A stretch of DNA of 64,000 nt from Planoprotostelium fungivorum (taxonomy: Eukaryota; Evosea; Variosea; Cavosteliida; Cavosteliaceae), in assembly GCA_003024175.1 (NCBI GenBank), contig MDYQ01000089.1, positions 1-64,000 on the forward strand, in the 5' to 3' direction. Position numbers and translations under genes: made by a program. Shown here one piece after another: positions 5,176 through 50,897 of this stretch; the first letter of the stretch is position 1; each line of letters begins with the position of its first letter. The notes beneath the pieces are model-generated. The model was given only the letters and a program-made list of their open reading frames with translations, was not told the DNA's origin and did not search any database.

Positions 5176-8100
5176 TTATCGTTTCATCGGAAGCCGCCGA
5201 GGATTCATCTTGCATTGACGGGTCAGATGAGACCTCCAACTCTCTTCATCGTTCATCAGATCGACCTGAGAGACAATGTCAATCACCTCCATCTCATCTC
5301 ACATCATCTTCTATACACACCTTACACAGAGGACATCGGCTTCTGCCCGTCGAGGGGTCTGGCAGTGGAGAGCAGTTTCCGTCGGCCGCGTGAAGATCGT
5401 ACTCATCTGACGGAACGGCTTCCGTGCAGATTGGACACTGCTGGAAGCTCTCGTATGCTTGACATTCATCGGGCATGAGCTTGTGTTCGTTGAAACCGGA
5501 TATCTCGATGACCTGTGTGAGCGATTAAGGATGCATGCTTATCGATGAAGATGTTTGAGTGGATGACCATGCATCATCGTCACCTGGCCACAGAGACACT
5601 CGATCAGAACTGGACACTCCTTTGCCAGATGATCGTCATAGACTGATTCCACAGATAGAAACTCCGGATCATGCATCATGCAAAAGTGGCACGTGTCTTG
5701 TTCGAAGACCTTGAACTCTTCATCATCCTCGACGGCGATGTTCTTCTGAGACGTGGGAGGTGGTGCCTGATGCTGCTTGTTGGCCAGAACAGCTGACAGA
5801 TCTTGACTCGAATGCAGCGACGGCACAGTCTTCTTTCCCGCCGCCTTCGCCTTTGGTGGATCCCTTTTGTCATCGTGAGACGCCACGCTTCATCATCAAG
5901 CTCACTTGGTTGGTGCGGACTCCTTCTTAAGAGGAGCCTTCGCTGCTGGAGGTGCAGCAGCCTTTCCTGCCTTCGGTGCAATCGAAGGTGAAGAATCGGT
6001 GCGTTTCGGTTTGCCTGGCTTCGTCTTCTCTTCTTGCACAACCGCTGGCGCGGCTGATTTTTGGGGGATCTGACAGCGTCAGATCATCGTCTCCTCATCC
6101 GTCTCACGTCTAATGGATGAGAGAGTTCCTTTTCAATGAGCTCCCGCAGCTGCGGCTTCATCTTTGTCCAGTGAGAGCTGATCGATCGGTCTTGTGAGTA
6201 GCAGGCGGCGGCCAATTTCACCGCGGTGCTCCTCACGTCATGACTCGAATTGTCCAAACTAGTCGTTACAAATTGGAAGATCTGAAGATGTTTGAGATTT
6301 GAATTCATCTGATCGGATGCTCACCTCTTCTGCTGGCATCGTGTCATCAGAATCTCCGAGGCCCCAGATTTGGATCTGATCCAGCAAGAGTTCCAATTTC
6401 GCTTGGACGGATTTCGGATTCGGTGCCTGCTTCTTCTTCTGCTTCAACAGGTGATGCACGATGAATTGGGGGCCCAGATTAGACGTCTCCATCATGAAGC
6501 AGAGCAACTGTGTACTCTGGTCTTTCAGCTTGGGATTTGTTTCTCCCATCTTATCGACGATGATGTCCGTGTGGGTGGCAACCGATGAGGTCAGATTAGA
6601 GCGGGAAAGGCTCGGAGCTGCTTCTCGGATCAAAGTGAGGAGGAGCTGCATGGCAGCACAGCAGACACTGACGTTCTTGTCGGCTATTCCGATGTCTAAT
6701 AGCTTCAGACCACCGCGGAAGACATCTAGTGGATCGACGTCTTTCAATACTGTCGGTATGTTCGAGTTGACCTAGTCATGATCAACATCACATCATCAGC
6801 ATCATCAGCGTCATCAGCATCAGCAGCATCAGCATCAGCATCATCTCACCTCCTTCAAGGCTGTCTCTCTCACGCTCCAACTCTTTGAGAACATGGATAG
6901 AACGTTTTGGTCACCAAAAATAGCAAACAGAGGCTCGTAATCCTTTCTGAACGAGGCTGGTACCTCCTCTGGAATATCGTTCTCTTTGTTCGGGGCCTTG
7001 AACTCATCTTCTTGCTTCGGTATGTTATTTCTGCTGGCGCCTACAACTATTCACGCGTCACACAACATCGTCTTCGTCGTCATCACCTCCACGCCGTAGA
7101 CTAGTTCCATCAGAAGGTTCGTAACCGCCTTCCTTGTTCTACGCAGAGTCAGTCCGATCACATCATCGCGTCTCACCATGTGTATGTGTAGGACGCGTTC
7201 GTCCGCTGGGTTGGGTCCGATGGGTATCTGTGAATGCCTCACGTTGCCCACGTTCTTTGGAGCGGGCAGAGGTTTCTCATCGTGCGGGATCTGAGTTTCT
7301 TCTCCGAATGCCTCTCTCGACTGACGCGCCGGCCTTATCAGACGCTCCTCCGACCTCTCATCCCTGATCTCGCGTGCCGATAGAGGGCCCTAGGGACATT
7401 GAGCGATGACGGTGTCGTGAAGATGATCACTTGGATGTTGGTGTTTCCTTCCTGGCGTCTGACTCGGCTGGCACTCTGAGCTCTTCCGTTTCTGTACAAT
7501 TGTTCGAGACGTTCTAGGTGTGATGGATCTTTACCACAATAATCTGCTGGTAGAGCCTGAGGTACGGTAAATCGACTGTAATTTCGAAAGCACAGATTCA
7601 CCCTTAAGGCTTCTATTTTCAGACGATCCTCCTCTTGTTTCAGTCTTCCTGCCTGGGCGTAATCTTCTTCCGCGACAGCCTGTTTCTTCTGTTGTTCGAC
7701 CGTTTTCACCTTTTCTGCGGCGATTTTGAAGTCCTTTTACACTCTCAATCTCTCGTTCGCGATATAGTGATCACCTCGATTGCCAGCTTCAATTCGTGAG
7801 CCAAATCGAAATCTTCCATCTCTACTGCGTGAATCTTCGCTTGATTCAACTCTTTCAGCTGTCAACATCGTTCAGCATCAATTTCCGACGCGATCGCGAT
7901 CACCTTGAGTGTCATCAGATTCTCTCCCGACATCTCTTGTGCCTCCTTCTTTCCTCGCGTGACGGAGCTGATCGACAAGGGATCAGGTTGAACGCGTCGG
8001 CTACTGTTCGGTAGTGGTGGATCCTCTGTCAAAAGTACACCGAGAGGTTGCAGTGCCACGATGCCGACCTGATTCAATACGTTTCTCTCGTTGATGTGAC

Positions 8101-8506
8101 ATTTGTGCAGGGAAAGCTTCAGATAACTGCACTGACGGTCGATTGTGACATTCTTGTACTCTCTCGCTTGATAGTCTGAGCTCTCATTGGAATCTAATGC
8201 GAGATAACCGATCCTCTTCCAGTGAATGGTCTTCTCCTCTCCCTGGTTGTTGTCGGTGTTGCCGATGTAAAGATCGACTCGCGATGAGATCATAAATTCG
8301 TGGGAGAGAAATTCGAGCTTGTTGACTTGTGCTGGACCTTCCAATTGGACGACTAGTTCTTGAGGATAGTTCGGATGAGCTTTCGTTCTCCATCCGTCTG
8401 TGGTATCTCTCACATTGGTGCTGATTGAAGATGCTGGGTGTGCAGGTTCAGAGCTGGATACGTGAACGACTTTGTAATGGAGTGGATGCAGGCCAGAGCT
8501 GCTCAT
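5176..8506 (-). CDS. CEP104: CEP104-type centriole/cilium-tip protein
   Basis: All four parts of CEP104 are present in order. The N-terminal jelly-roll domain (MSSSGLHPLHYKVVHVSSSE, then FLSHEFMISSRVDLYIG and LKLSLHKCHINERNVLNQVG) spans about the first 170 residues. A charged coiled coil with KKQAVAEEDYAQAGRLKQEE follows, then a TOG/ARM-type helical array (NVSVCCAAMQLLLTLIREAA). A C-terminal zinc-finger array contains CHFCMMHDPEF, CPICTEAVPSDEYDLH and CPLCKVCIEDD. One further splice at about 5290 extends the last finger to SWRSHLTRQCKMNPRR before the TAA at 5176-5178. CEP104 caps centriole and ciliary microtubule tips and binds tubulin and EB1. Its presence implies that this organism builds cilia at some stage. 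Confidence 0.92.
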
Positions 8507-8762
8507 GCTGATGCTGCCCGCTTCAGAAACGGACTCGCGCGGGAAATCGTGAGCACTACAAGCTAAATTGACAAATTCATTTTTCCAGCCATTTTACGTA
8601 TCGATGGTGACCTCGATGATTCTATTGACTAATAGTACCAACCCCTAACAAAATTCTTACTTGAATCAGCGTGTTCTGTGGTTGCATCATCATCTAGAAG
8701 AGCCTGTTGTGATTTATGACAACGTGACAGCTACAATCTACACAAGACAAACACAAGTAGCG

Positions 8763-29425: not shown

Positions 29426-32400
29426 TCACGTGCCGTCTCTGCTCTTTCCGTGTTGGATGATGTTGAGGAGGTTGGGCATGTTGTTCTTCTTCAAGGCCTC
29501 TCGACAGCCGGTTACAATTCGTGTTTTCACGGGACCGTCTGAAAAGATTGTCAGAATGAGGAAGATGCGTTGATCGTGACGATCGTGAGATCGGATGATG
29601 ATGTTGATGGTGTGATGACATACATCGCAATCGAGAGCACTGTTGAATGATCTGATTTGTCTCCTTTAGGCAATCCAATAAGGCATTGAAATTGTTAACT
29701 CTCTTGGCATATTCACCACACAACTCTTCGTTCAGACTCATCAGAGAACGGTAGAATCGTTTCATACTCGGTCTAAATTTGTCAATCGATTTACAGTCCC
29801 TTCTGTATGTTCTCACATCTCTGATAAGATTCTGGCGTCTTCAGCTCGTACTACCAATGTTTTGATAAGGTTAGCACTGTCTGCCATCGCCACAGTCAAT
29901 TTCGTTCTCGTCGCATCGAACTCGGTGACCTGTTCATCGATCACAATGAGTAACCATTGTGTGCGATAAATCCAAAATCAAGCTCCTCACCCGATTGACT
30001 GATTCCTGCAGCCGAACGAGTTCCTTTGGAAAATGGATCTGTGACTCCAATTCGCTCAATTGTAAGAATTCGCACAGATCTTGGATCATCTCTCCAGCTA
30101 CTTCGATGTCATCCGTTCTCAGGGTGAACTGCAACAATATCAGCGTGACTCCACATCCAAGTATCTCACCTCTCCATCTTTCATCTTCATGGTGAGTATC
30201 ACTCCTGTCTTGAAGTTGAGGAATGTTTCGTTTAGCGTCTCATCCAACGGATGATTGATCAAAAAATTCTCGTTTACCCATAAGAGTATCTGCACGTGTT
30301 AGTCCTATTCAACGATGCGATCGACATCGATGACTCACTCGATTGACTCGATCCGCAATGTGACAAACAACATAGCCTGACGGTTCAATGATCTCGTAAT
30401 TCGCCACAGTCGTCACCGGGGCGTAGAGAGCAAATCGAGGAAACGACATGGCTTCCTCGAATACGTGGAAATGGTCGACACTGTTGGATTCAGCAGTTTA
30501 GAAGGGTTTACATTTCACCTGTATTTTGTTCCCACAATGGTCTTGATGAACAATTGTGCAGAAGCGTTCCGTTTCGGGTTGATGACGACTTCGACGTATT
30601 CCGTGGGCGTTTTGGGGTGTCTGCGATCGAATCAGCGTTTGATTCGTAAATGTGACAGCTCACATCATGATGGCCTCTTCCTCGAAAATCTGCTCTCCAA
30701 ATACAGACACGCAACGGATGAATACTCCCGGTGACGTCTGTATGGATAACACGACCGTTCTGTTGATGTAATTGGCAAAAATCTGGCAAGAGACGGAGGC
30801 ATTACGGTTGATCTCCGTCTGCGATTCGCTCGCTCCATCACTATCCACCACGGCGTCACTACCATAACTTCCATTGGAATCTTGTCGTCTCAAAATGAGC
30901 GAGCCCCTCTTGTCCTTCTTCTGCATCGAGTCTGAGGAGCCCTGACGTTTGAGAGAGCCAGTGGAGTCTTGTCGGCCCAGATTCGCCGTCGAGTCTCTCT
31001 TCTTGAGTGAGAGTGAGTCTTTCCCCTTCAGTTCTGCCCGTGAGTCCCTTCTGCCCAGCAATGGTGTACCGAAGATGGATCGAGAGGTGACAGACTCGGC
31101 GGCCTTGATGTTGTCTTCCAAGTTTTTCAGTTGTTGCAACAGCTCCTGATAGATTGTGAATGATAGAGAAGGTGAGACGAGCTCACTTGTTTTGCTTGGG
31201 ATAAATGTTGTATCTGCTCTTCGTCTGCCCTGGCTACCATCGAAGCAATAGCGGCAGCCTGGGCCTCTCCCATGGAGCGATTGTACCCACGGACTGTATA
31301 GATTCAATGCGATTCCCACACCTTCTCCACACCTTCTCCATCTACCGTAACGCACACCACTTGTTCTTGTCCATCCATTCGGTAGTCCGAAATCACGATG
31401 GCGGCGATGCACGATCCCAACTCATCCGAGTACAAGACACTTCCATCCTCCATAGACCTCACTTCGAATCTCCCTGAGGACCAGCCGCACAGCAACTCTG
31501 ATATCCCGTCTCCGTTCAAATCAAAACTGAACGGATGAGATGAACGAATGATGTTCTGCGCTCACGAATGTAATGCCGTGATTCGATGTTTCGTCTTGGC
31601 TCTCCAAAGGCGATTCGTGCCTTCGTACACACCCACGGTGCCGTTTTCGAGACCGTAACTGGAATGATCAGCTGAGCGATAGAGATGAGGTATCACCCCA
31701 TCCTCCCGATGTCCATCGAGCACACTTTGACGATCTTATCTGCCTCCGTGATCTCATGCATCACCTTTGTGTCCGTCAATGTTGATGTCACCAAGCATGA
31801 CGTTCACCTCTTCTCCTTTGAACACACGAAGTTCGAAATCTTCCGATCCGACGATGAGATTATTGTTTCCTTCTTCTAACACATCACCGAGTGCCAGAGA
31901 TGAGACGTTATCTCCAGTGATGGTGTAGAAGATCTCTTCTCCCTTCGGGTCGAAACCTTGTATCGTGCAGTTGCCACCGACTATGCACATCGGTGTCTTA
32001 TTCTCTCCCAGAGAACCTACCACCATCGTATTGACTCCATCGGGGACCTAATCAGTCAGCCTTATTCACCTCTGACGATCAACGCTCACTTCTTTGAAAA
32101 ATATGTCTGTGTTGGCCTCCACATCGTATCTGCGTGATTCAGCTGTTGGTTTCCTAGCTCATCAGACATACCCCAGTAAATTGGTTTGCGTTCCTACGAA
32201 TAGATACTGTTTGGTTCTGAAATCCTCTAACGCTCCTACACCCAGACCACTGACCGTTTGATTGATGTTAAGATAACGGACTTCAGGATCGTCCGGTTTA
32301 TGGTGTGGATCGTGAACTAAAATCCTACCAGCCGTGGTGGCGCAGGCGATGGAAGGATGAACTCCATCGACTGCAAGACGTGAGCCGACATTTAGCCTTA

Positions 32401-44358: not shown

Positions 44359-45281
44359 AGAACAGAAGAAATGTTTGAGATAAAGACAAGATGAGATGGC
44401 GTGCTTGCTTGTGTGTTGTCTGATGTCGTGCGGCCCAAGCGATGAATCACCTTTTTAAAAAAGTGTGTTAAGAAGACGAGTGGATCCATGTTGATTTTGC
44501 ATTATAGTAGCGCGTGCTAAAGAAAGGTAAATATTCCGTGGGCTGCACAATAATCAGAGACGAAACATCACATCACCGATCGAAGATGAATGGAACGACA
44601 CAGCGAAGATTCCACGATCGAACCCAAAAACGTTTCAGCCGTTGGCTGCATAAAATTGGCCGGCTCTGCTCATGGTCGCCACAGTGATTGATTGCATTGC
44701 AAAGAGCAACTGAGATGATCTGATCTCATCTGCCATGAAGCTCGTGCGATGCACCAGGTCAAACGACGAGAGTACGATATTCTGGAAAATGGTCTATTTC
44801 TCGTATTTGTGTTGTAAAAAGAGGTGCGCGCGCCAAAAAAAATTTCATTTTCAAAAAAAGTCCGAGCGCGGCAATACGCCACCCCAACCGCATGGTCTAT
44901 CTTCTTTCCACCTCGAATCCTTTTAGATCAATGTATGATCAATATAGCATAAACATCAATCTATCTATATCTTTCCACTTACGAGAATGCTCTTCCATTT
45001 TCCATCGACCTCTCCTCTTTAGACCCTCAACCACTTCCAATCGATGAGTAAGACCCTTTGAATCCTTCCTATCCTTTCCTCTCTTCGAATCAGATGCATT
45101 TATCAAATCGATTATCATAGTTACCATGTGGTCACGAAGACCTTCTGAACCCTCCCTACACTCTTTCTAACGCTAATGCAGGTTAATCCGGGCCGATTTC
45201 GAAGCGGAGGGCAATTGTTCGCCGCCCACAATTATTGTCGACGGTATTAACGGCTAGTCGACGCTGCGGGACACCCCAGGA
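44359..45281. other. Intergenic region, upstream of U2 snRNA
   Basis: These 923 bp follow the GRAM-VASt stop. The right end (about 45190-45281) is the presumptive U2 promoter. It contains CAATTGTTCGCCGCCCACAA and GTCGACGGTATTAACGG, but I know no amoebozoan snRNA promoter consensus well enough to mark a proximal element. No tRNA or protein gene was recognised. Confidence 0.45.
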
Positions 45282-45550
45282 AGCATCTTCTCGGCTTTTT
45301 AAAGCTTAGATCAAGGTAGGCCCCTTTCTATTTCGATCATCATCATCATACATCATCACCCAAACTCGTCTAATATCGCCGCAGTGTAGTATCTGTTCTT
45401 ATCAGTTTAGTCGACTGATAGCCCTGGGTACTCCAGGGCATCCGACTAAATTAATTTTTCTCTCGGGTGAGAGGATCAACACCGGAGCTTGCGAAGGTGC
45501 CTCTTACACGGATGAATTCAGCATTGCACTGAAGCTGACTTTCGTCCACC
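45282..45550 (+). ncRNA. U2: U2 spliceosomal snRNA gene interrupted by an intron
   Basis: Exon one (about 45282-45315) reads ATCTTCTCGGC, a self-pairing stem I (GCTTTTTAAAGC) and TTAGATCAAG. Exon two (from 45385) continues TGTAGTATCTGTTCTTATCA, the universal U2 sequence containing the branch-site-recognition GTAGTA. Stem IIa (TATCAGT/ACTGATA, 7 bp), stem IIb (GCCCTGG/CCAGGGC, 7 bp), an Sm-type site in AATTAATTTTTCTC, a small stem (CTCTC/GAGAG), the conserved GGAGCTTGC, and a stem IV with TTCAG/CTGAA arms around CATTGCA all follow in the right order. The mature RNA would be about 200 nt, the normal U2 size. The 5' and 3' ends are estimated to within a few bases. In the spliceosome U2 pairs with the branch site and with U6. 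Confidence 0.95.
45316..45384 (+). other. mRNA-type intron within the U2 snRNA gene
   Basis: The 69-nt insert begins GTAGGC after ATCAAG and ends CGCCGCAG before TGTAGTATCTG. Removing exactly these bases restores the universally conserved ATCAAG-TGTAGTATCTG junction. A plausible branch site, TCTAAT, lies about 14 nt before the acceptor, a distance like that in the protein-coding introns nearby. Body composition (ATC repeats) also matches those introns. The GTAGGC donor differs from the usual GTGAGT but is acceptable. Confidence 0.93.
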
Positions 45551-46279
45551 GTTCAAATAATCAAAAGATACAAAAATATAAGAAAATCGTCTGAAAACGA
45601 TTCAGCGGCAGAAACAACGAGGAAAAACACTCGGAGTACGAGAAGTGAGTCTGATCGAGATGAAGTGACCGACAACAGACCAAGGATCGATACGAAGACT
45701 GAGAGGTGAGTGATGATCGACATGGCATGACAAAGGAGCGTGCATCGTGTTAAAGACCGACGTGAAAATCTTTGCATGAACGAGGATATGTGTCGTGGCC
45801 GGGAGGCAGCATGAGTGTAGCGATCACCGAATGCGATGATCGAAGCGATGGAATTGCACATCACGGCCTAGAGATAATAAAGGATTCCCTTTCCACCATT
45901 GTGCGATAAATCGTTATTCGATATTGAAGGATATTTGCTCAACTTTTGAGTCCAAGTCTGATGTGGTGCCATGCATTCGTGACATCCATCCAATACGATC
46001 GGTGAATGTAGTGTGCTCGATTCGTGTCCTCGTTCCATATGATGTTACACGTGATGATGACTCGATGAACTCCTTTGCCCTTCAGTAGATCAATGTTGGG
46101 TTCTACTTTCATCCACGAACGACACCACGATCTCCGTCATCACTGGTTGCATCTCATTGATCGTCCCTTAAACAGAGATACCGTAGGTCGAAGTTCAGCG
46201 ACCAGAATCTGGCTTCATTGCAGACGATCGACATCATTGATGCACCTGCCATCACTGTTTCATTCGTCTTGTGGATACC
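45551..46279. other. Intergenic region between U2 and 5S rRNA genes
   Basis: These 729 bp start with the A/T-rich U2 3' flank, where an snRNA 3' processing signal would lie. Minus-strand and plus-strand frames of about 100 codons exist but show no splice continuity or domain. I searched by eye for U1, U4, U5, U6 and tRNA signatures and found none. Confidence 0.45.
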
Positions 46280-46284
46280 AAAAA
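46280..46284 (-). terminator. RNA polymerase III terminator of the 5S rRNA gene
   Basis: A run of five T on the minus strand directly follows the last paired base of helix I of the 5S rRNA. This is the standard polymerase III termination signal. Confidence 0.85.
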
Positions 46285-46401
46285 GCTACGATACGATGGC
46301 TTCCTGCGTGGTCGCCCACCGCGGTACTAGCATCGCCCATGTTTGCTTACCTTACGAGTTCGGAATGGGATCGTGGGTGTTCAAGCAGGTATGATCGTAA
46401 C
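46285..46401 (-). rRNA. 5S ribosomal RNA
   Basis: The 117-nt RNA begins GTTACGATCATACCTGCTTG and ends ATCGTAGC; the first and last eight bases pair to form helix I (one G-U pair). Internal conserved blocks are GAACACCCACGATCCCATTC, CCGAACTCGTAAGGTAAGC and AGTACCGCGGTGGGCGACC, matching the eukaryotic 5S consensus including the region of the internal A and C boxes. Only one copy is seen in this window. It is isolated, neither tandemly repeated nor next to the large rRNA genes. Confidence 0.95.
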
Positions 46402-46760
46402 TGTTGAGTCTCTCAACATCGCTAACACATACGCAAAGCGGGTCAATCAGTTTCACAAACTGAAGTCTCCTGTGTAACGAATATTGAAGCACATATGAAC
46501 GAATAGCGTGATCTATTCAATCTACTCAACGAAAGAGGAGGTCGTAACTGAAGACTCTCGACATCGTCAACGCGAAGTTGGTAAACAGTTGAGCAACAGT
46601 TGAGCATTTCAGTAGATGGCTTATGATTCGTAGTAGCGATGCAGACCGAACGAATAGCAAAGAGTTAAACTCGAGAGGATCACAAGGAAGTAACACAAGA
46701 AACAAAGACCTAAGATTAAGGTTGCATTTATCGCATCCATCACGATACTCGCGGTCGCAC
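46402..46760. other. Intergenic region between 5S rRNA and RPL3
   Basis: These 359 bp hold the 5S upstream flank and the RPL3 3' UTR. A segment resembling the 5S 5' flank (GTAACTG then ACTCTCGACATCGTCAAC) recurs near 46546-46574. Nothing else was recognised. Confidence 0.45.
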
Positions 46761-48097
46761 TTAAGCGTTGGTGGCGGGGGCTCCGGTAGCGGGGGCAGTC
46801 TTGGCACGGGGGCCAAAGTACTTCCTCTTCTCCAGGGTGGTCTGGAATCTTCCGTGTCCAAACTTGGAGGAGGTGTCGATGAACTTGAGGGACACCTGCT
46901 CGAGGGCAACACGGTTGGTCTGGGGGACGAGGGACTTACGGAGAGTGATGACTCTCTTTCTTGTTCCCATGACGGAACCCTTGACCATGACAAAGTCGTT
47001 GGTGACGTGTCCGTAGTGAGAGAATCCTCCCATGGGGGTGATGGTCTTTCTGGTCAGATCGTTGTCGGTGCTTCCGTTTCTCTTGTTGGCTCCGGATCCG
47101 ATTCTGTAGACCTTCTTGTTCAGCTCGGTACGGTTGTGGAATCCACGCTGTCCGGCTCTGGGCACGGCCCAGGACACACGGGCGGGATGCCATGCTCCAA
47201 TACAAGCGACCTTACGCAGACCCTTGTGGGTCTTTCTGGGCAGACGTCTGGTTCCCCAACGGGCGGTAACTCCCTCGAATCCGTGTCCCTTGGTGACACC
47301 GATGACGTCGATGTGCTCAGACTCCTGGAAGACGTCGGAGACCTTGACCTTCTTCTCAAAGAGGCTGCGAGCGTAGTCGACCTTGGCGGCGATGTCTCCT
47401 CCGTTGACCTGGATCTCGAGGACGTCGGCCTTCTTCTGGAATCCGACCTTTCTGGCCTGAGTGTGGGCAATGACTCTGACGACAGTGGCGAACTTCTTGA
47501 TTCTGGCGATCTCCTTGTCGATGGATCCGGCCTTCTCGGCGACCTTCTTGGTGTACTTGGTGAAGGCCTTCTTCTTGGAGGCGTACCATCTCTTGTAGTA
47601 CTTTCTGCGGTACTCGTCGGACAAAAAGTTGGCCCAGACGGTGGTGAGGGCACGGAGTCCTCTGGGGGTCTCGGTGTAACCGACAACTCCGATGACGACC
47701 ATGGCGGGAGTCTCGAGGATGGTGACGGGCTCGACAACCTCCTTCTTGTGGAGCTTGGATCCGTTACGATCGAGCTCACGGACAATGTGGGTCATACCGG
47801 CCTTGTAGCCGAGGAAGGCAGTAAGGTGGGGGGCCTTGGTCTGGTCATCCTTGGGGAAAGATCTGATCTTTCCACGGAGTCTGCTGGCTCTCTTTCTGGG
47901 GGAGAATCCGAGGGAACCACGACGGGGAGCTGAAGAGAGGATCAGCCTTCTGCACGTTCGAGTCCATCATTCACAATCATATCATCGATCTCGATGGATG
48001 GATGAAACCATCATCGAGGAACGATTATGAAGGGATCGTATCGTATAGACATGGATGCATCGTTCGGCAGCTCACCTCTGAATTTTCTGTGCGACAT
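46761..48097 (-). CDS. RPL3: Large-subunit ribosomal protein L3 (uL3)
   Basis: Exon one (48076-48097) encodes MSHRKFR, and a 146-nt intron (47930-48075) follows. The remaining 388 codons are uninterrupted, for a total of 396 residues, normal for RPL3. Signature blocks include [80 protein letters not shown] (the W-finger and the histidine methylated in other eukaryotes) and [20 protein letters not shown]. It ends ATGAPATNA at 46761. Strong codon bias, with C or G in most third positions, marks high expression and explains a long open frame on the opposite strand. The long, single 5' intron is a common arrangement for ribosomal protein genes. Confidence 0.97.
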
Positions 48098-48307: not shown

Positions 48308-50897
48308 ATGGATCTCACATTGACTGTTGGTGTCATCGCCGCCTTCTTGGTGATATTCTTGTTTCGATATCTATCGAACAGACAAGCGGCCCCCGCGCCC
48401 GTCCGCCAGCCTGCCGTGGTGAAAGAGTTTCACATCGAGGAGGTCACATTGGAAGAGCCCAAGAAGGACGAATCGTGCGCTTGCAAGGAGGGTAACACAA
48501 CCGACGAGAAGACGTCATGTTGCCGCTCGAATGATAATGATGATTGCAAGAAGGATCAGATCATGAACGCCAGAGTATTATACGGCAGTCAAACGGGTAC
48601 GGCGAAGGAATGGGCACATCATCTCGCCGCCAACCTGCGCTCGGAGGGCTACAAGGCAACGGTCTCTGATCTGGCCACGTTCGAACCCGATGAGCTCTCT
48701 CAGCTCTCCCTCGTATTCTTTGTCATCTCCACCTACACTGATGGAAAGGCCCCGGACACTTGCATCGGCTTCTATGAGTGGTTAGAGGACATGTCACACG
48801 ACTTCAGAGTCCCCAAGGACTTCTATTCCAAGCTCAAGTACAGTATCTTTGGCATCGGTGATTCCATCTATGGAGACAACTACTGCACCACCGCCAAGGA
48901 GATGGACAAGATGTTACAGAGGATGTCTGCACAGAGAGTTGCCCCCATTGGATTCGGAGACAGCGGCACTTCTGTCGAAATCAAGGACGGATACAAGCCA
49001 TGGTTCAAGGGAGTTTCGGCGGGCTTGAATGGCTCTCAGAAGCAAGACGTGAGAGATGATATGCATCTAATGAAAGATGACGTTCGGACAGAAGAAACAA
49101 ACGAAGACAAAGCCGAAGAAGAAGGTCGAGCTTGGAAGAATCTCTGAAGAGCCAGACGAATTGTCCGATGATGAAGAGGTGAGGCAGATCGAATGAACGA
49201 CATCTCATTTCATCGACAGGTGAAGGAGAACATCACAGACGTGGAAGATATGGGAAAATTCGTCAAGCCTGTGCCTCAGAAGAAAAAGAAGGTCGAGATT
49301 CAAGAGGAAGAGGAAGAAGAGGACGAGGAAGAGGATGATGATGATGAAGAGCTAGAATTGGTGGAAGGACAAGCCCCCAAAGAGATGCTGACCGAGTCTC
49401 TGAGAAAGAGTCTGACGAAGCAGGGTTACAAACTTCTCGGCAGTCACTCTGGTGTGAAGATGTGTCGATGGACTAAGGTGAGCTCCACTTTCATTTTTTT
49501 CCAAAGATTTATTTCATCTCTATCTGAAAAACATTTCCCGTCTACAAGAAAGGTTCTATCTCACGTTCAAGATTTATTTCATTTTATTCTGAAACGAAAC
49601 TGAAAGAGATCAGGCCATGATGAGAGGAAGAGGAGGATGTTATAAGCACACCTTCTACGGTATCACTTCATCTCAGTGCATGGAGATGACACCCTCTCTC
49701 GCCTGTGCCAACAAGTGTGTCTTCTGCTGGAGACATCACAAGAATCCCGTGGGAAAAGAATGGCGTTGGGTGGTTGATGAACCCGATATGCTCGTCGATG
49801 CCGCTATGAAGAACCACTACGGTGAGACTTTCATCCCACTTGTCATCACATCATGATCATCATCATCACGATCATCATCATCATCACGATCACAGCGATG
49901 ATGATGGTTCACCGTGGAGATGCTAAGGAATCAATAGGAATGATCAAGCAATTCAGAGGTGTCCCCGGTGTAACGAAAGAGAGTTTCGAAGAGGCGTCTA
50001 CCATCCGTCACTGTGCCCTGTCCTTGGTAGGAGAGCCCATCATCTATCCCTACATCAACCGTTTCGTTCAATTGCTCCACGAGAAGAACATCTCCTCCTT
50101 CATGGTCACCAACGCTCAATTCCCCGACAAGATCGTGAGTTTTCTCCGAATTTCCCCATTTCCACTCTTTTTCTCCCCATCTTCCGAGAATTTTCTCCTT
50201 TTCCTCGAACGTTCGACTCACTCTTCCAGGAAACTTTGGACCCCGTCACACAGCTCTACGTCAGCATCGACGCCGGCACAAAGGAGAGTCTAAAGAAGGT
50301 GAACACTCCACCCTCACCCACCGCTGACGTCATCAGGTCGACCGCCCCATCTTCGGTGACTTCTGGGAGAGGTTCTTAGGCTCCATCGAAGCCTTGAAGA
50401 GGAAGGGACAGCGAACCGTCTTCCGTCTCACCCTCATCAACGGCTGGAACACCGAGGAGATTTCAAACTACGCACAGCTCGTCGAATTGGGTGCCCCCAC
50501 CCTCATCGAGATCAAGGGTGTCACCTACTGCGGCACGTCCAAGGCATCGACTCTGACCATGAAGAACGTGCCCTACCACCAAGAGGTCCTCCACTTCTCT
50601 CAGGCACTGTGTGACTCGACTCCCTTCATGAAGGAGAACTATGAGATCGCCTGCGAGCACGAGCACTCGTGCTGCGTCCTCTTGGCCAACAAGAGGTTCA
50701 AAGTAGATGGAGTGTGGCACACGTGGATCGACTATCCAAAGTTTCACGAGCTGGCGGCTTCTGGAAAGGACTTCACCGCGGAGGACTACATGGCCCCCAC
50801 GCCTTACTGGGCCGTCGTGGGCAGTGAAGAGAAGGGATTCGATCCAGAGCAGGTCAGACACAAGAGGACCAAGCCTTATGCCGGGCAGGGCTGTTAA
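48308..50897 (+). CDS. TYW1: TYW1, 4-demethylwyosine synthase
   Basis: The start at 48308 gives an N-terminal membrane anchor (DLTLTVGVIAAFLVIFLFRY). A flavodoxin-like domain follows (VLYGSQTGTAKEWAHHLAAN, then FFVISTYTDGKAPDT and FGIGDSIYGDNYCTTAKEMD). A Lys-rich and then very acidic linker leads to the radical SAM domain, with ACANKCVFCWRHHKNPVGKE (CxxxCxxC cluster), TKESFEEASTIRHCALSLVG and LIEIKGVTYCGTSKASTLTM. It ends KPYAGQGC at 50897. TYW1 makes the tricyclic ring of wybutosine at position 37 of phenylalanine tRNA, using pyruvate and SAM. Domain order matches human and yeast TYW1. One intron (about 49477-49612) contains a near-duplicate of 25 nt. Confidence 0.96.

Follow-up and report, generated by a model that had tools for sequence, protein, structure and literature searches.

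Introns of the mRNA type have been described in genes that encode spliceosomal RNAs. The title of Takahashi et al. (1993) reports one in the U2 snRNA gene of the basidiomycete yeast Rhodotorula hasegawae. In fission yeast, an mRNA-type intron lies near functional nucleotides of the U6 gene, and PMC10484740 puts forward reverse splicing as its origin, in agreement with the original prediction, which had named both the intron and this explanation. U2 genes are also occupied by the non-LTR retrotransposons Utopia and Keno, which break the most conserved part of U2, and Utopia occurs in an amoebozoan as well, Acanthamoeba castellanii (PMC4640811).

This study deals with a window of 64,000 nucleotides, i.e., the whole stretch of DNA that was analysed (contig MDYQ01000089.1, positions 1 to 64,000), from a genome that NCBI names Planoprotostelium fungivorum and that, according to PMC10639083, is Protostelium aurantium. 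The U2 gene of the window resembles that of R. hasegawae, as far as a title permits the comparison, in carrying an intron of spliceosomal type, but the host here is an amoebozoan whose genome contains both kinds of copy, nine interrupted and six intronless. As in fission yeast, the interrupted gene encodes a spliceosomal RNA and the intron sits close to functional nucleotides, but there the intron is in U6, whereas in the amoeba the two U6 matches over the cut-off, one of them degenerate, are contiguous. Like Utopia and Keno, the insert breaks the most conserved part of U2, but the Utopia site differs (U2 resumes at nt 39 according to PMC4640811), and the amoeba insert is only 65-69 nt long with splice-like signals. 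The kind of arrangement is already known from the R. hasegawae U2 and fission yeast U6 genes; no report of an amoebozoan snRNA intron or of a mixed U2 family was found in the open-licence literature, judged by titles and the beginnings of abstracts. Exact patterns of the interrupted U2 had no match in a viral and none in a genome contig collection, neither of which surveys eukaryotes; the uninterrupted U2 string was likewise absent from the viral collection, so that this collection is uninformative.

The U2 family of the genome

The Rfam covariance model RF00004 identified a U2 snRNA gene at 45283-45554 (this and all further features between 44811 and 45674 are on the forward strand) with 77.4 bits against a cut-off of 46, and dropped about 20 positions of the U2 5' part because an insert separates them. 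The gene reads GCATCTTCTCGGCTTTTTAAAGCTTAGATCAAG, followed by 69 nt (GTAGGC...CGCAG) and then by TGTAGTATCTGTTCTTATCAG, which runs to about 45554. Exon 1 (45283-45315) holds the 5' end, stem I, and ATCAAG, which we take to be the U6-pairing segment; exon 2 (45385 to about 45554) holds GTAGTA or, in its longer form, TGTAGTA, presumably the branch-recognition segment, followed by stems IIa, IIb, III, and IV and an Sm-like site. The insert (45316-45384) splits U2 between ATCAAG and TGTAGTATCTG, and its removal joins the two directly, a junction that is found ungapped in the six intronless U2 copies of the genome. The original prediction of a U2 gene split by 69 nt, whose excision restores U2, was borne out on both points.

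In the assembly (36.9 Mb, 471 contigs), U2 was found at 15 places, 14 of them over the Rfam cut-off. The same 15 were recovered when the spliced U2 sequence was used as a query against the genome DNA; of the 24 matches, 15 comprised exon 2 or the whole gene and nine comprised exon 1, and no spliced retrocopy of the interrupted class was among them. Nine of the 15 copies carry an insert of 65-69 nt at one and the same site, namely, those on C23 (the window), C90, C94, C120, and C451 and four on C387, one of which is cut by an assembly N and is not counted among the eight complete copies. The site is empty in the other six, located on C27 (three), C123 (two), and C234 (one). The original claim that production of this core splicing RNA would itself require splicing is not supported in that form, since these six copies are intronless. 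GC content at the 13 U2 loci measured is 45-50%, which is consistent with one organism. No Pfam domains were detected in five ORFs flanking intronless copies.

Aligned over 200 positions, the window copy shows 39 differences from an intronless copy on C27. With hand-set helices, stems IIa, IIb, III, and IV and the IIa-loop pseudoknot form in both the interrupted and the C27 class, and the two classes differ by two pair-keeping double changes (C-G to U-A in IIb, U-A to C-G in III). By the same method, the C27 copy has single outer mismatches and the C234 copy has more broken pairs. RNAfold returned the full textbook fold for none of the three U2 sequences folded.

Of the RNA families searched, U2 alone has the intron: contiguous matches were obtained for U1 (6), U4 (3), U5 (6), U6 (2 over the cut-off), U12 (1), and U3 (4). 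U6 matched nine genes or fragments in all, seven of them under the cut-off, and the degenerate tandem U6 (63 bits; 1604-1703 of locus L014, C74:56503-56602) follows the intact copy (95.1 bits) at a distance of 3 nt.

A snRNA promoter element, CCCACAAT, is located at 45225-45232 and occurs at -56 to -58 in all 15 U2 copies. The element or a near form of it is present at -57 to -64 in 6/6 U1, 6/6 U5, and 2/3 U4 genes and in the intact U6 gene, and the pattern CCCA[CT]AAT has three occurrences in the whole window, both strands included. Downstream of the U2 3' ends, an AAAAGA box (45563-45568 in the window) was noted by eye.

According to blastn of the window against seven other interrupted loci, the gene is part of a dispersed unit of about 0.86 kb (44811-45674) that begins at 44811 and ends between about 45630 and 45680; the 3' limit depends on the copy and lies further out in C94. 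Within this unit, 8/8 aligned copies show CTAA[CT]G[CA]T...CAGG at 107-118 nt 5' of ATCTTCTCGGC and, a further 117-120 nt upstream, a donor-like GTA. In the window, the pair delimits a possible second intron (45048-45181, GTAAGA...CTAAC-N7-CAG), and the upstream stretch used as a query gave 10 matches, at interrupted U2 loci only. This conserved pair could mark an additional intron, if the precursor is longer, or else a promoter element. At C425 (locus L063), a small-subunit rRNA end of prokaryotic or organellar appearance was seen by eye beside repeated flanking sequence, abutting different-looking DNA; organelle DNA, contamination, and misassembly are the candidate explanations.

The amoebozoan origin of the window is supported by the neighbouring RPL3 gene (46761-47966, reverse strand): an alignment that covers 97% of the query shows 100% identity with the RPL3 of Planoprotostelium fungivorum (Amoebozoa, Variosea). 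A 5S rRNA gene (46283-46402, reverse strand) lies between RPL3 and U2. Ciliary genes are present in this amoeba genome as well, i.e., CEP104 (6259-8593) and a BBS2-like match just under the cut-off (30660-31421).

Splice-like signals, divergence, and host introns

The nine inserts have a common set of splice-like signals. All contain CTRAY-N7-YAG (CTGAC in six, CTAAT in three), with CTRAY at equal spacing; in the window this is CTAAT at 45370-45374, 7 nt 5' of the final CAG, in line with the branch-like site expected near the acceptor. All nine end in AG, and +3 is always R and +5 always G. The donors read GTAGGC, GTGGGC, GTACGG, GTAGGG, or GCACGC, i.e., GT in eight copies and GC in one, the latter (GCACGC) belonging to the C451 copy (L013). 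That diverged inserts at one site in 9/15 copies carry the same signals is more than chance and supports the original view of a spliceosomal-type intron.

Exons and inserts have diverged to very different degrees. Across the eight complete interrupted copies (the cut ninth copy excluded), 4 of 203 exon columns vary compared with 38 of 68 intron columns; the corresponding Fisher value of 3e-23 is descriptive only, as related copies are counted as independent. Exon 1 is identical in all eight and exon 2 is 98-100% identical, while intron identity ranges from 56 to 100% (mean 73%) and flank identity averages 62-63%, the upstream figure taking in one copy whose upstream region enters a gap. At each of the two splice sites conservation drops abruptly. 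This is explained if selection acts on the RNA after splicing, which would keep the exons while the introns diverge, whereas gene conversion at the DNA level is disfavoured as the cause of exon identity because it would be expected to homogenise the introns too.

For comparison, introns of the host were obtained by spliced protein alignment, which yielded eight, of which six (in RPL3, TYW1, and a phosphodiesterase) were trusted; those at 49049-49121 (begins GTGAG, variable stretch) and 50329-50369 (begins GTCAT, open sequence) were dropped. The trusted introns all have the donor GTGAG. In the U2 inserts, position +4 is G or C, and the donors of the inserts look weaker than those of the host. 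Near the acceptor, CTRAY occurs in one and CTNAY at 5-8 nt in four of the six trusted introns; the RPL3 intron adjoining U2, which is fixed by the protein, reads GTGAGC...CTGAT-N8-CAG. In the window as a whole, 39 frame-compatible CTRAY acceptors were counted versus 9-19 for six scrambled motifs, an enrichment in support of the branch motif, and CTGAT shows a spacing excess at 5-8 nt. The same frame test is without power on donors (GTRNG 39, but GGRNG 29 and GARNG 33 as controls). Four of the six U1 copies (L024, L025, L026, and L028) begin ATACTCACCTG, and the other two (L023 and L027) begin ATACTTACCTG. The C of the four copies would pair with the G at intron +3, and GTGAG is the donor of all six trusted host introns, so that an adaptation of U1 to these donors seems indicated. 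As regards a possible donor intron, none was found: the window intron as a query matched only itself and the C451 intron, in a search that leaves out simple repeats and that did not recover the remaining U2 introns either.

Alternative explanations for the interrupted copies

Judged from sequence, it is very probable that the inserts are true introns of the major class, that they are spliced, and that the genes which contain them work. The original prediction had itself considered an intronless U2 elsewhere combined with a silent pseudogene at this locus. The first part is correct, and it opens the possibility that the six intronless genes make all U2 while the interrupted copies are silent or dying, to which the GC donor of one copy and the weak look of the donors beside the six trusted host introns would also fit. 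Such decay is nevertheless unlikely: exon columns are nearly invariant compared with intron columns and with flanks near 62-63% mean identity, the promoter element is present in 9/9 interrupted copies, and the paired stems are kept. A functional U2 that is longer because it retains the insert is highly improbable, as the insert adjoins the branch-recognition segment, its sequence identity falls to 56%, and the splice-like signals are what is kept.

Removal of the insert by another spliceosome, as a minor-class (U12) intron, is very unlikely. A short distance from branch site to acceptor is also typical of U12 introns and counts in favour of this class, but the U12 donor, RTATCC, is found in none of the nine inserts, which makes the major, U2-needing spliceosome the likely agent. 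One U12 gene is present in the genome, and 265 minor introns have been counted in this species (PMC10639083), both of which would accommodate the minor class. An origin of the insert as a relic of a U2-targeting retrotransposon of the Utopia or Keno type, or of the interrupted copies as food-yeast DNA in the assembly, is extremely improbable. Amoebae of this kind are fed on Rhodotorula, a point for the latter, but the GC content of the U2 loci, the presence of CEP104 and the BBS2-like match in the window, and a promoter element common to other snRNA genes argue against it. Here U2 resumes at TGTAGTA with nothing lost, presumably about 7 nt before nt 39 by human U2 numbering. That Utopia inserts into U2 genes and is present in Acanthamoeba castellanii speaks for a retrotransposon relic, and the different point of resumption after Utopia speaks against it (PMC4640811).

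Probable origin of the intron and implications for U2 supply

The position of the insert, the empty-site paralogues, the common splice-like signals, the exon constraint, and the promoter element are established. The reading that we prefer, with a probability of roughly 0.86, is that the interrupted copies of this protosteloid amoeba are working genes with a short major-class intron that would be spliced to normal U2, and that intronless copies coexist with them. Each interrupted gene would be transcribed from the snRNA-type promoter, and the ordinary spliceosome would remove the intron from the precursor to give normal U2. Points against this reading are the donors, which deviate from the GTGAG of the host, the conserved intron-like signal upstream, the lack of spliced retrocopies among the genome matches, and the RNAfold result. 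The circularity of a splicing RNA that depends on splicing is not absolute, because the six intronless U2 genes can supply U2 alone.

A single gain of the intron is probable, in an ancestor of the interrupted copies that later multiplied by duplication, and since then the exons would have been held by selection while introns and flanks drifted. Reverse splicing may have been the source of the intron; its site adjoins the pairing segments, between ATCAAG and TGTAGTA, as in mRNA-type snRNA introns, and this position fits. snRNA-gene introns are a main natural argument for intron gain by reverse splicing (cf. PMC10484740 on the fission yeast U6 case). Nine interrupted and six intronless copies at one site in one genome provide built-in empty-site controls, and the diverged introns under the same constraint constitute a set for comparison.

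A more speculative, rather doubtful extension of the preferred reading is a two-tier U2 supply, in which the intronless genes would provide the founding U2 and a second isoform would be released only by splicing at weak donors. If this were true, the level of the second U2 isoform would report splicing capacity, and its precursor may be an extended transcript resembling an mRNA in which the conserved upstream intron is included. With this gene family, nature has also set up a way to ask if cells allow some of their supply of a core splicing RNA to rely on splicing itself, and since the two U2 classes can be distinguished by ordinary RNA sequencing, this question is directly testable.
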